A program made the position numbers and the translations under genes. 42,010 bases of DNA. Origin: Moorena sp. SIO3I8. Its GTDB lineage: Bacteria > Cyanobacteriota > Cyanobacteriia > Cyanobacteriales > Coleofasciculaceae. The DNA is taken from assembly GCF_010692325.1 (NCBI RefSeq), contig NZ_JAAHHW010000052.1:1-42010 (forward strand), read 5' to 3'. Position 1 is the first letter of the stretch. Every line of letters begins with the position of its first letter. Positions 17,628 through 24,543 of this stretch are shown piece after piece. The notes under the pieces were generated by a model, which ran no database searches, had not been told where the DNA came from, and was given only the letters and a program-made list of their open reading frames with translations.

Positions 17628-17872
17628 GCTGAGGTTGGGGCTTCCAATTCTCAGGTCAACTCAGGGACGGTTTTATTCGTCTTTTGGGCTTCCCGCGCGC
17701 GTCCCCGACGCCTCAACCAGAGGCGCGCGCCTGCTGGAATTGGTCTTACTCAGCGTCCACAGGCAGACATCCGCCTTCTATCGACGTATAACTTTTACGA
17801 CAGACTCACCTTGGAATTACAGCACTATGGCCAACCAGCCGGGGTTTGTCTCTTCCCGGAGACGAAACCTTA

Positions 17873-17946
17873 GTAGAGTGGAGCCTTTATGGTTGGTCGG
17901 CTATGCATAAAAGGGTTAAAACTGTTTGATTAAGGCTCCACTCTAC
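17873..17946 (-). ncRNA. Conserved 74-nt hairpin, second copy of the omega-RNA-like stem
   Basis: Fifteen-bp perfect arms (GTAGAGTGGAGCCTT / AAGGCTCCACTCTAC) enclose a 44-nt loop that is 41/44 identical to the loop at 24373-24416. The arms differ from the other copy at three positions, each compensated on the opposite arm. This indicates selection for base pairing. Confidence 0.6.
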
Positions 17947-18067
17947 TTACGGTAACTTCAAACCCTGAGCTCTGAAGCGTACTTTTACACCTTGAAGGTA
18001 GCCTTTTAGTCAGTCAGGCGGGTCATCGACCAACATTATTTTAGCACGAATCGTCATAAGTTGTCGT

Positions 18068-20533: not shown

Positions 20534-20571
20534 TTGTTAGTAGTTAGTAATTAGCTTCCGGCAAAAGAAGC

Positions 20572-20603
20572 CCCACAACGAACATGCGCAGCATGAGTGT
20601 GGG
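20572..20603. repeat. Left-end subterminal hairpin of the IS
   Basis: Outer arms CCCACA (20572-20577) and TGTGGG (20598-20603), inner arms CATGC/GCATG around GCA, with unpaired bases between them. Imperfect palindromes of this kind are what Y1 transposases recognise in the IS200/IS605 group. Confidence 0.55.
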
Positions 20604-20765
20604 ATGAATTTTGCACAGGGTCTCTTGGATTCGGCAAAGCCGACGCGGGGCGCGTTCGGGGAAACGAGCTATCAAGCTGTCTTAAAACTCAGACGAGGTC
20701 ATCCCTCTTCGATTGGCATCTTGCTCCAGTTGTCTTTTTTCAAAATCGGTAATCCTAACATATAG

Positions 20766-20796
20766 TATAATATTACTAGGTCGATATACGAGAGGA
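20766..20796 (+). promoter_or_regulatory. tnpB leader: -10 element and ribosome-binding site
   Basis: A perfect TATAAT at 20766-20771 (no convincing -35) and AGAGGA at 20791-20796, eight bases before the tnpB ATG. A related AT-rich/GGTCGAT leader occurs in the miniature copy on the other strand. Confidence 0.5.
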
Positions 20797-20804
20797 CAAG
20801 TCAA

Positions 20805-21063
20805 ATGAGAATCGCGTATCAGTACAGGCTAAAACCGACAAGAGATCAGCAAACCAAGATTGATCATTGGTTGTCAATGTTGTGTGCTCAATATAACTAT
20901 TTGCTGGCCGATCGGTTCAGGTGGTATGAAGAAAATCGCTGTTCAATTAATACTTGTCCGCTTGTATGTTACCTCCCGGAATTAAGGGATAATCCCGATT
21001 ACTACAGTCAAAAAAAGACTCTTCCAAGTTTAAAAAAGACTCGCCCATGGTATAAAGACATCC
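20805..21063 (+). CDS. tnpB: tnpB exon 1 (N-terminal 86 codons plus first base of codon 87)
   Basis: Encodes the OrfB/TnpB N-terminus: [20 protein letters not shown], the [20 protein letters not shown] helix, and [14 protein letters not shown]. Translation then runs into the intron and would stop at 21098 after 11 foreign residues. The break falls exactly where GTGCG begins; joining to 23435 gives [14 protein letters not shown], which is the normal TnpB sequence at this point. The spliced frame is 1,188 bases, 395 residues. The exon alone covers only the leading RNA/DNA-binding wedge region, with no catalytic residue. It is therefore not functional unless the intron is removed. Confidence 0.85.
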
Positions 21064-21399
21064 GTGCGATTCGTTGGCTAGAAATCATACCTAAATAAGG
21101 TTTGGGGGATTAGCCGCTTGGTCTACTGAACCATGACAACTTGATAACCATGATGGTGTAAATCCATCCCTCGCGAAATCCGAGTGAAAGCCCTACCCTG
21201 ATTTATGGACATAACAAACCCATGGATTGATGCAAGGGTTGAACAGCGAAGCATCCTTAACCTGACCGATGTTAGTAGCAGGCAGAGAACTCATGGGTAC
21301 GAGAGAAAGGTATGTTTGAATCATCGTCATTGTAGTGTAGCGAAAGAAGGTTTGATACGCTACAGACAAAAAAGTCAACGGAGTTAGGATTACAAAGTT

Positions 21400-21406
21400 G
21401 GATGTC
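21400..21406 (+). other. EBS1 of the group II intron
   Basis: GGATGTC lies in the loop of a TTACAA/TTGTAA stem-loop and is the exact complement of GACATCC (21057-21063), the last seven bases of tnpB exon 1 (IBS1). This pairing positions the 5' splice site and target DNA. EBS2 was not confidently located. Confidence 0.8.
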
Positions 21407-21628
21407 CTTGTAACGATTTCCCACATAACTCCCGGTGAATAGTACCACCCTAAAAGTTCACAGAATGGTTATCAGGAACGAAGTAACCTCACATGCACTC
21501 TCAGTAAGGTCGATTATTGAGTAGGTAGTTAGCCGCAAGTCATGTGTAGGAAAGATAGAGTCAAAAGCTAACGTCTAGGGTAATGCCTAGGATATGCTGA
21601 CAGACTCACGTTACAGGAAGAGATATAG

Positions 21629-23326
21629 TTGCCAGTAGTAATGAATATGTCTAAAACTCGGGGGTTCGCCCCACAGTCGGAATGGAAGAAAGTCAACTGG
21701 CGTAAGCTAGAAATGACTGTCTTTAAGTTACAAAAACGAATATATCGAGCCTCAAGCCGTGGTGATGTCCGCGTGGTGCGAAAGCTGCAAAAAACCCTGA
21801 TGAAATCCTGGTCAGCTAAAATGATTGCGGTTAGAAGGGTAACCCAACAGAACAAAGGCAAAAAGACTGCCGGAATAGACGGGGTTAAATCCCTAACACC
21901 AAAACAACGCCTCGCCTTAGTAGCCAGCCTTAAAGTTCAAAGAAAGGCCAAACCAACCAGAAGGGTATGGATTCCCAAACCTGGACGAACGGAAAAACGC
22001 CCATTGGGGATTCCCACCATGTATGACCGCGCCTTACAAGCACTTGCGTGCGCGGCTCTAGAACCGGAATGGGAAGCAAAATTTGAACCCAATTCCTACG
22101 GATTTAGACCAGGACGCTCATGTCACGATGCAATCGAAGCAATATTTAAAAGTATCAAGCAAAAACCCAAATGGGTACTAGATGCCGATATAGCAAAATG
22201 TTTCGACAAAATCAACCATGATGCACTTCTGACAAAATTAAATACATATCCGTCACTAAGACGATTAATCAAATCATGGTTAAAAGCCGGTGTGATAGAT
22301 AACGGAACATTCTCATCTATAAAAGAGGGTACTCCCCAAGGTGGAGTTATATCCCCACTCTTGGCAAATATAGCCCTTCACGGAATGGAGGAACGAATCA
22401 AACAATATGCCAAATCTATGAAAGGAGATAAAAAAAGAAACAAAAAGGCATTAAATTTGATTCGATATGCTGATGACTTTGTCATCCTGCATAAAGAACA
22501 AACTGTGGTAGAAGAATGTCAAAGAATCATCAACGAATGGTTGAATGACATGGGATTGGAATTAAAACCAAGTAAGACCAAAATTACCCACACTCTTGAC
22601 GGATTTGATTTCTTAGGATTTACTATCCGTCAATACCAAGTAGGTAAACACCAGTCAAAACAAGGTTTTAAAACCATCATCAAACCATCTAAGGAAAAAG
22701 TTCAAGAGCATTATAGGCAGCTCTCAAAATCTATCGACAAACACAGAGCTGCCCCTCAGGAGGCACTAATACGCCACCTAAAACCAATTATACGTGGATG
22801 GTGTAATTACTACAAGAGTGTTTGTAGTCAAGAAACTTTCGACGAATTAGGAAACATGCTTTGGAATAAACTCCAAAGATGGGGATACAGGAGACATCCA
22901 AAGAAATCAAAAACCTGGGTAAACGATAAATACTGGGGAACCATCGAAGGTGATAACTGGACATTTATGACAGGGAAAGATAATTATCTCCCCAAACATG
23001 CCAAAACAAAAATTGTAAGGCACACAAAAATCCAGGATACCAGAAGTCCCTATGATGGAGACCTAATCTATTGGAATACCAGAATGAGAAAGCATCCTGA
23101 GATGACCACTCAGAAGGGAAAACTTTTAGAACGGCAAGAAGGGAAATGCACTCATTGTGGTCTTACCTTTAGGGATGGAGATTTAATGGAAAAACATCAC
23201 ATAATACCACGCGCACTAGGGGGAAATAATTCAGACAAAAATCTCGAATTATTACACCTACATTGTCACGATGTCAAACACGGAAAGAGAATCAACTCCA
23301 ATGAGTTAGATGAAAACCCGTTCTAG
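21629..23326 (+). CDS. ltrA: Group II intron-encoded protein: reverse transcriptase-maturase with HNH endonuclease
   Basis: A 565-residue protein. The RT domain runs from about residue 70: RRVWIPKPGRTEKRPLGIP, YGFRPGRSCHDAI, the KWVLDADIAKCFDKI block, EGTPQGGVISPLLANIALH and the catalytic YADD at 280-283. The thumb/maturase (X) domain follows (LIRHLKPIIRGWCNYYKSV). The C-terminal HNH endonuclease has C507 and C510 in CTHCG, HHIIPRALGGNNSDKN at about 523-538, and HLHCHDVKH. It should bind its own intron RNA, promote splicing and catalyse target-primed reverse transcription. The initiating codon is uncertain: TTG at 21629 (AGGAAG nine bases upstream) or ATG at 21641/21647. No truncation or missing catalytic residue. 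Confidence 0.93.
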   Translation: MPVVMNMSKTRGFAPQSEWKKVNWRKLEMTVFKLQKRIYRASSRGDVRVVRKLQKTLMKSWSAKMIAVRRVTQQNKGKKTAGIDGVKSLTPKQRLALVASLKVQRKAKPTRRVWIPKPGRTEKRPLGIPTMYDRALQALACAALEPEWEAKFEPNSYGFRPGRSCHDAIEAIFKSIKQKPKWVLDADIAKCFDKINHDALLTKLNTYPSLRRLIKSWLKAGVIDNGTFSSIKEGTPQGGVISPLLANIALHGMEERIKQYAKSMKGDKKRNKKALNLIRYADDFVILHKEQTVVEECQRIINEWLNDMGLELKPSKTKITHTLDGFDFLGFTIRQYQVGKHQSKQGFKTIIKPSKEKVQEHYRQLSKSIDKHRAAPQEALIRHLKPIIRGWCNYYKSVCSQETFDELGNMLWNKLQRWGYRRHPKKSKTWVNDKYWGTIEGDNWTFMTGKDNYLPKHAKTKIVRHTKIQDTRSPYDGDLIYWNTRMRKHPEMTTQKGKLLERQEGKCTHCGLTFRDGDLMEKHHIIPRALGGNNSDKNLELLHLHCHDVKHGKRINSNELDENPF

Positions 23327-23359
23327 AGGAGCCACTGTCAAGGATTGTACTGTAATGAG

Positions 23360-23434
23360 GAGCCGTATGATATGAAAGTGTCACGTACGGTTTTGGAGAC
23401 GAGTCGGTGAGGCGACTCACCGGCTTAGTTTAAT
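23360..23434 (+). ncRNA. Intron domains V and VI
   Basis: Domain V is a 34-nt hairpin with the AGC catalytic triad at 23361-23363, a GAAA loop and the two-base bulge region. Domain VI pairs GAGTCGGTGAG with CTCACCGGCTT; A23427 is left unpaired as the branch-point, and seven bases follow it before the 3' splice site. Confidence 0.88.
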
Positions 23435-24363
23435 ATTCTCAGGTACTTCAGGATACAGTAAAGAGAGTAAAGCTAGCTTTTGACAGGTTTATCAAAGGAG
23501 ATAGTAGCGGAAAACGAAGTGGACGACCTAGGTTCAAAAAGCTACACCGCTACCGTACCTTTACCTATCCCCAAATGAAAGAAGGGTGTCTGGAAAGAAA
23601 TTTGATCAACCTTCCAAAAATAGGCAAAGTTAAGGTTGTACTCCATCGGACTATTCCTTCTGGATTTAATATCAAGACAGCTTCTATCACCAAAAAATGT
23701 GATGGCTATTATTTGGTTTTATCTCTAGAGGACAAGACCATTCCTGAAATTAAGCCCAATATTAATCCAGATTCAATAGTTGGGATTGATGTTGGTCTTA
23801 AAGATTTTTTTACTACCTCTGAGGGTGAAGTCGTTGAAATTCCTCAGTATTATCGAAAAGCTCAAAAACGTTTAAGAGTGATTCAAAAGCGAGTATCCCG
23901 GAGAAAGAAAGGGGGTAATAACAGGCTAAAGGCGATCAAGCAGCTCGGAAAACAGCATAAAAAGGGATCAGACAAAAGAAAAGATTTTCATTTCAAAACA
24001 GCAAACCACCTACTATCAAAGTATGATGTAATCGCTCATGAAAAACTAAATGTTAAAGGACTGGCTAAGTCCCGATTGGCTAAATCTGTGTTGGATGCGG
24101 GATGGTCAAGCTTCTTGACAATCCTAGCAAGCAAAGCCGTTCGCGTAGCGTGGCCTACGGCCTTGAATGCTGGCTTGTTAACGGTTCCAGTAAGCCCCAA
24201 AAATACTTCACAGAATTGCTCCAATTGTGGCAATAAAGTCCCCAAGAAGTTGCATGTCCGGTGGCATGATTGTCCCCATTGTGGATGCAGTCTTGACCGC
24301 GATCATAATGCAGCTATCAATATACGAAATAGAGCGGCAGGGTTTGAAGTTACCGTAAGATAG
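23435..24363 (+). CDS. tnpB: tnpB exon 2 (RuvC nuclease and zinc-finger part)
   Basis: Continues codon 87 (C|AT) and runs 309 codons to TAG. In the spliced 395-residue protein the RuvC residues are D205 ([10 protein letters not shown]), E289 ([11 protein letters not shown]) and the Asp in [11 protein letters not shown] (374/376); the zinc finger CSNCG...CPHCG lies between. These are the catalytic parts of TnpB, an RNA-guided DNA nuclease related to Cas12. Residues 322-330 (VRVAWPTAL) are an insertion not found in relatives, caused by a dispersed repeat. An internal ATG at 23575 could give a 262-residue RuvC-only product. The C-terminus is short after [12 protein letters not shown], ending FEVTVR. 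Confidence 0.88.
24139..24162. repeat. Small dispersed repeat inserted in frame in tnpB
   Basis: GTTCGCGTAGCGTG (24139-24152) plus GGCCTACGGCC is the reverse complement of the repeat at 17614, 33983 and 34023. It adds about nine residues between the end of a helix (ILASKA) and [11 protein letters not shown] without shifting the frame or adding a stop. Confidence 0.8.
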
Positions 24364-24543
24364 TGGAGCCTTAATCAAAAAGTTTTAACCCTTTTATGCA
24401 TAGCCGACTAACAATAAAGGCTCCACTATCTAAGGTTTCGTCTCTCGGCAGTCCGTTCTTAAAGCCCAGCGCCTCCTAAGGGATGCCCGGATTGGCGCTT
24501 GTTGCCTACACTGAACCTGTAAGGTCAGTGTAGGAGCTGTCAC
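24358..24543 (+). ncRNA. Structured right end, omega-RNA (reRNA) candidate
   Basis: Overlaps the last two tnpB codons and continues to the inferred IS end. Three stems are visible: 24358-24431 (15-bp arms AGATAGTGGAGCCTT/AAGGCTCCACTATCT, 44-nt loop), 24468-24499 (AGCGCC/GGCGCT) and 24505-24534 (12 bp with bulged A24515). Covarying arm changes in the copy at 17873-17946 support the first stem. TnpB guide RNAs are known to arise from this position, with the guide read from DNA just past the element, here starting at about 24544 (TAGTTAATAGTCAGTAGCA). Expression is not shown. Confidence 0.65.

Follow-up and report, generated by a model that had tools for sequence, protein, structure and literature searches.

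How can a tnpB gene that is split by a group II intron still provide for a full-length TnpB, and how did the intron come to lie there? We analyzed these questions in a window of 42,010 nucleotides, which is the whole of contig C459 of the 8.0-Mb Moorena genome G000; the relatives nearest to this genome among the genomes compared include Moorena bouillonii PNG5-198. We infer, and consider very probable, that a mobile group II intron like those of Thermosynechococcus elongatus (T. elongatus) reached the tnpB gene of an IS200/IS605-type element by retrohoming and that it is spliced out by its own maturase; the restored TnpB may be active. The features on which this reading is built are collected in Table 1.

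Alignment of related elements revealed a conserved left end (TTAGC...) and a conserved right end (...GTGTAGGAGCTGTCAC) of the host element. The joined exons (20805-21063 and 23435-24363) gave a stop-free open reading frame (ORF) for a TnpB of 395 aa, with Pfam matches to HTH_OrfB_IS605, OrfB_IS605 and Cas12f1-like_TNB. The catalytic residues D205 and E289 and the DRD motif at 374-376 were all present, giving the RuvC D-E-D set along with the zinc ribbon, and the closest solved structures were the TnpB entries 8h1j and 8bf8, which we take to be ISDra2 TnpB. No tnpA candidate was found among ORFs of at least 90 aa within 20551-24543; tnpB-only elements are common. At the right end of the element, no omega RNA family was matched in Rfam, and the conserved hairpin just inside this end is possibly part of an omega RNA scaffold. 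The comparison with omega RNA and TAM features was limited to the element ends, namely the conserved termini and the hairpin, with an insert of ~105 bp close by.

Table 1. Features of the split tnpB element in the window
Feature	Coordinates	Strand	Evidence
IS200/IS605-type tnpB-only element, whole	20551..24543	+	Range over which intronless C58 aligns; ends of related elements in alignment
tnpB exon 1, HTH part, residues 1-86 and first base of codon 87	20805..21063	+	Pfam PF12323; gapless alignment over the junction with the intronless copy
IBS2 in exon 1 (TATAA)	21051..21055	+	Second block of the unguided covariation scan
IBS1 in exon 1 (GACATCC)	21057..21063	+	Pairs with EBS1 at 7/7
Group II intron, 2371 nt	21064..23434	+	Rfam, empty sites, EBS/IBS pairing
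EBS2 (TTGTA)	21330..21334	+	Unguided covariation scan
EBS1 (GGATGTC)	21400..21406	+	Pairing test and unguided scan
Intron-encoded protein (IEP): reverse transcriptase, maturase, HNH endonuclease	21629..23326	+	Pfam; 6me0_C
Domains V and VI of the intron, with an A left unpaired at 23427, 8 nt from the 3' end	23358..23434	+	Rfam, folding, covariation
tnpB exon 2, RuvC and zinc-binding parts	23435..24363	+	Pfam; PDB 8h1j/8bf8; alignment to C58
Short palindromic repeat unit, 24-27 nt, in frame inside TnpB	24139..24162	+	Absent from C58; 88 genome copies at <=1 mismatch, 44 exact
MITE-like repeat, ~105 bp, replacing the C-terminus found in C58	about 24343..24447, limits approximate	+	Absent from C58
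Conserved hairpin just inside the right end	24506..24533	+	Compensated stem changes among related elements, by eye

We compared the junction with intronless tnpB genes. C58, an intronless paralogue in G000 with 88% protein identity, aligned across the junction base for base with no gap. The empty element L332 of genome G001 matched an occupied M. bouillonii copy up to base 1759 (the last of exon 1) and again from base 1760 (the first of exon 2), with nothing gained or lost and 99% identity over 1152 columns. The empty element L320, also of G001, abutted likewise with the M. bouillonii halves 3260100 and 4454498, with 100% identity to the exon 1 of 3260100 over 259 columns. The matches of L332 and L320 end at the IS ends, indicating that these are close copies of the element elsewhere in the genome and not the same locus. 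Occupied copies of the same site and empty copies were thus both found, as for an IS-resident intron. In the plasmid collection, no record among the best 20 of 55 had a single place covering 80% of the element; the same 20 included numerous relatives of the intron and, from Oscillatoria nigro-viridis (H10, L027), a tnpB relative that lacks it.

These comparisons bear directly on the initial annotation, which had proposed a split of tnpB by a complete-looking group II intron, with the frame restored on exact removal of the intron. The junctions of C58, L332 and L320, the EBS/IBS pairing and an unguided scan all upheld this proposal, and the boundaries 21063/23435 and the 395-residue product with its catalytic residues were confirmed to the base. 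An uninterrupted homologue contradicting the junction had been set beforehand as refutation, and all three homologues fit the junction. The further claim that full-length TnpB would be obtained only by splicing follows from the sequence.

The intron begins with GTGCG at 21064 and ends with TTTAAT, in agreement with the 5' GUGCG and 3' AY termini of group II introns. Rfam Intron_gpII was matched at 23358-23434 across the full model length; this D5/D6 region folded with z = -5.7 and showed two-sided changes at 9 of 30 consensus pairs among 13 copies. The IEP frame is open and encodes 565 aa with RVT_N, RVT_1, GIIM and HNH domains (Pfam), that is, reverse transcriptase, maturase (X) and endonuclease (En) parts. 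Its best solved relative was 6me0_C, the maturase of entry 6me0 (E 7.4e-107, residues 16-553), an entry that is presumably T. elongatus TeI4h. The dN/dS of the IEP was 0.12-0.16 against eight relatives, three of them with shortened ORFs. These features suggest a mobile group II intron, putatively of the IIB CL-type, the subclass being read from IEP similarity.

We examined target recognition by setting the bases aligned to 21400-21406 against the exon bases preceding each intron in 22 related introns, among which two pairs have an intron type in common. EBS1 and IBS1 paired at 126 of 132 positions, compared with a mean of 60 (SD 5.7, maximum 88) in 20,000 shuffles. An unguided covariation scan of 20 introns ranked EBS1/IBS1 first, with EBS2/IBS2 (21330-21334 against 21051-21055) as the second block. 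The M. bouillonii target carries one IBS1 mismatch, leaving 5 of 6 positions paired. We then scored 38 intronless tnpB copies of four congeneric genomes, one row (an occupied exon 2) having been dropped: EBS1 pairing was kept at 6/6 positions in 9 copies, at 5 in 18, at 4 in 9 and at 3 in 2. Many homing sites may thus remain open. Two introns (G000:C246:44315-46737 and G002:C1:630564-632963) lie inside or beside tandem GGGGAGATGG-type repeats, and their EBS1 is complementary to the repeat.

Under the retrohoming explanation, the intron RNA would find its target through EBS1/IBS1 and EBS2/IBS2 base pairs formed with codons in a stretch common to a large tnpB family (here WYKDI/HSQVL), and the reverse transcriptase would copy the intron into it. 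One EBS sequence could reach many IS copies, so the intron could spread among them and also between species. The maturase of the IEP should then splice the intron out and restore the TnpB frame, and because of this restoration the insertion would cost the IS little. Related introns, whose EBS sequences are altered, occupy other sites in tnpB and also further group II introns.

We surveyed four Moorena genomes for intron 5' ends and found 48, one of which was a scaffold duplicate, leaving 47; the 5' pattern tolerates one mismatch and misses more diverged introns, such as L130, which lies in tnpB and is outside the counts that follow. Twenty of the 47 5' ends fell in tnpB genes or remnants, at seven sites and all in the sense orientation (site A, that of the window, 4; B, 4; C, 5; D, 1; E, 3; F, 2; G, 1). 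By genome, the tnpB insertions made up 6 of 13 ends in G000, 14 of 27 in G002 and none of the 5 in G001 or the 2 in G003, and no occupied site-A copy was present in G001 or G003 among the matches listed. Thirteen insertions (the window and twelve others) were supported by protein matches at most 10 nt from the junction and seven by frame reading and Pfam; G000:C500 is among those counted but may not mark a genuine intron end. We also fetched 79 loci chosen by similarity to the window IEP, 11 of them from Moorena; of the other 68, a usable boundary was obtained for 66, which are cyanobacterial loci. With a small TnpB panel of few subfamilies, TnpB was found in the sense orientation at most 10 nt from the junction in 9 of these 66 loci and in antisense in 1 (L195); many of the 66 yielded a single boundary, in some cases by extrapolation, and L140 is the least certain. 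TnpB cover of flanks more than 1.5 kb away was 1.5% sense and 1.1% antisense.

The rival explanation that fares best is that the intron splices poorly or not at all and is parked in a dispensable IS gene, with tnpB inactive, only omega RNA and a truncated protein (from ATG 23575) produced, and survival of the intron by retrohoming alone. We regard this as possible but doubtful. It draws on the multicopy state of tnpB (102 PF07282 matches in the G000 genome), which would make the loss of one copy cheap, and on the ORF of 262 aa that exon 2 holds on its own. It also draws on the condition of the genes. Of the 20 tnpB genes that are occupied in the genus, at least 8 (3 of 3 at site E, 3 of 4 at site B, C496 and the site-F gene 5862288) carry stops, frameshifts or inserted sequence that disrupt the 5' part no more than ~370 nt from the junction, so splicing there cannot give normal TnpB. 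The window copy is altered as well: the ~105-bp repeat replaces the last residues found in C58, and its C-terminus is therefore not native. In addition, the described parts of PMC4238363 report very inefficient splicing in vivo for RmInt1 in ISRm2011-2 of Sinorhizobium meliloti, with <1% of exons correctly ligated, so that exact anatomy is no guarantee of much TnpB. Against a poor splicer stand the intact and conserved IEP, EBS/IBS and D5/D6 with its unpaired A, the open frames of those site-A exons that have been read, in both the window and M. bouillonii, and the sense orientation of all 20 tnpB insertions counted in the genus. Splicing by the intron's own maturase remains the reading that we prefer.

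The two inserts within the window copy are themselves repeats. The 24-nt palindromic unit has the sequence GTTCGCGTAGCGTGGCCTACGGCC, and the M. bouillonii tnpB at 7194274 carries the GTTCGCGTAGCGTGGCCTACGGCC unit at the same place and at a second one. The ~105-bp MITE-like repeat had at least 55 genome matches, partial ones included (40 of 124 candidates scored), with two copies in the window, at 17859-17965 and 24340-24450. The copy in tnpB ends about 100 bp short of the right end of the element and may disturb the omega RNA scaffold. The dN/dS of TnpB against C58 was 0.04, a low value that mostly reflects the time before insertion.

We next asked whether the intron owes its spread chiefly to transposition of the IS that carries it (hitch-hiking) and not to its own homing. 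The intron does sit in a mobile element, every copy of which would carry it along. At least three tnpB copies of M. bouillonii (3260100, 5892445 and 7194274) are interrupted at this codon by an intron whose 5' end is the same; of these, the 5892445 copy belongs to another tnpB subfamily in the tree. Just 51-54 intron bases were readable before a gap in two of the three, and these were identical to those of the window; the intron that could be read through (7194274), on a scaffold shown to be faulty by its gaps and repeated stretches, was 99.8% identical to the window intron, whereas the tnpB exons that align were about 77-82% identical to the window exons. This difference argues that the intron homed into diverged tnpB copies. 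On a tnpB tree of 43 rows, two of them 22% filled, the five occupied rows required 5 changes, each forced by well supported branches, and occupancy was unclustered (500 of 500 shuffles were as low); two occupied rows are probably halves of one gene, which makes four loci. Occupied copies are thus scattered over the tree, and two occupied elements have close empty relatives. Both the tree and the divergence pattern fit repeated homing better than descent with the IS, and spread mainly by hitch-hiking appears very improbable. An assembly artefact or chance juxtaposition is scarcely credible: the M. bouillonii copy spans scaffold gaps with repeated stretches and many G000 intron pieces end at contig ends, but the window is one contig with the entire insert, misassembly does not yield exact empty sites together with EBS/IBS pairing, and a second species shows the same junction.

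Introns of this lineage were also seen beside other introns and in another gene. By eye, seven other Moorena introns adjoin the domain V of a different group II intron, and more of them were placed within or close to other intron sequences. Four introns of G001 (C3:1298903, C4:13502, C4:81615 and C5:1074422; L112-L115), of equal identity to the window intron, lie just 3' of another intron's domain V, a position that by eye is a recurrent putative twintron site. In L316 (M. bouillonii 1606080), the intron 5' end lies inside the IEP of another intron, between its maturase and HNH parts (by eye against the window IEP). A Fic-family gene is interrupted by a related intron immediately behind its HPFSDRNGR motif (L126, 4426-6848; M. 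bouillonii 5691027-5693449), and the joined flanks form one open frame of 351 aa with a Fic domain. The M. bouillonii scaffold at L107 (7189520-7194600) contains a gap and overlapping repeated stretches joined by a single N inside the intron, and this locus looks misassembled. A candidate twintron in M. bouillonii, suggested by another intron start 155 nt downstream of the first, was rejected, as a run of N and single-N joins make the repeats look like scaffold artefacts.

The locus offers a base-resolved case of a retroelement inside an RNA-guided nuclease gene, with empty and occupied close elements in sister species. The repeated occurrence of such introns in tnpB suggests that the homing sites offered by large IS families do not become saturated, and the arrangement would place intron splicing upstream of TnpB activity. 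A more far-reaching idea, which we consider unlikely as a whole, is that tnpB genes of these cyanobacteria are a renewable landing ground for specialised group II introns, in which splicing gates full-length TnpB while omega RNA, whose sequence lies at the 3' end, can come from any transcript, giving the intron control over the activity of its carrier IS. Genome annotation may well record such a tnpB gene as separate pieces or as a pseudogene.

The IS of IStrons carry TnpB, and their intron is placed outside the ORF. IStrons resemble the present case in combining a self-splicing intron with an IS, but as described in the passages of PMC4227781 compared here they consist of a group I intron and an IS that are joined into a single unit. 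The window has a group II intron with its own reverse transcriptase inside the ORF; identity with an IStron was rejected, and the distinction drawn by the initial annotation holds. Its description of the arrangement as unusual was overstated, given at least three further occupied M. bouillonii copies of the same site, six other tnpB sites in the genus and the IS-resident group II introns already published (parts of PMC2882425 and PMC4238363).

Twintrons are described for T. elongatus and Trichodesmium in the passages compared (PMC2882425; PMC4649490). Moorena introns of the window lineage resemble them in adjoining, by eye, domain V of other group II introns; the window intron differs in sitting in an IS protein gene. 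RmInt1, going by the same parts of PMC4238363, is likewise a group II intron within an IS transposase gene, whose splicing is required for the IS protein. It is a IIB3/class D intron in a transposase gene, with splicing that was measured, whereas in the window the host protein is an RNA-guided nuclease and splicing is predicted.

The nearest parallel is found in T. elongatus, where three F4 introns occupy one conserved site of the IS200-family element ISEL1, and where introns are retargeted by EBS change and insert into other introns and insertion elements (PMC2882425, passages compared). The likeness to the TeI introns extends to the cyanobacterial host, the related IEP (6me0_C as best match), EBS retargeting, a shared IS site and insertion into introns. 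The F4 introns are ORF-less according to the same passages (PMC2882425), whereas the window intron encodes its own IEP; the passages do not name the ISEL1 gene that is interrupted, whereas in Moorena seven tnpB sites in several tnpB subfamilies are involved. No earlier description of a group II intron inside tnpB was found in the portions of the open-licence literature consulted. Retargeted introns in insertion elements are already known from T. elongatus F4 and RmInt1 (PMC2882425, PMC4238363, in the parts compared), and the tnpB insertion extends this known intron habit and is not a new kind of thing. Beyond these passages, in which the ISEL1 gene is unnamed, the present case contributes a host gene that encodes an RNA-guided nuclease, seven insertion sites within it, and elements with and without the intron that match one another.
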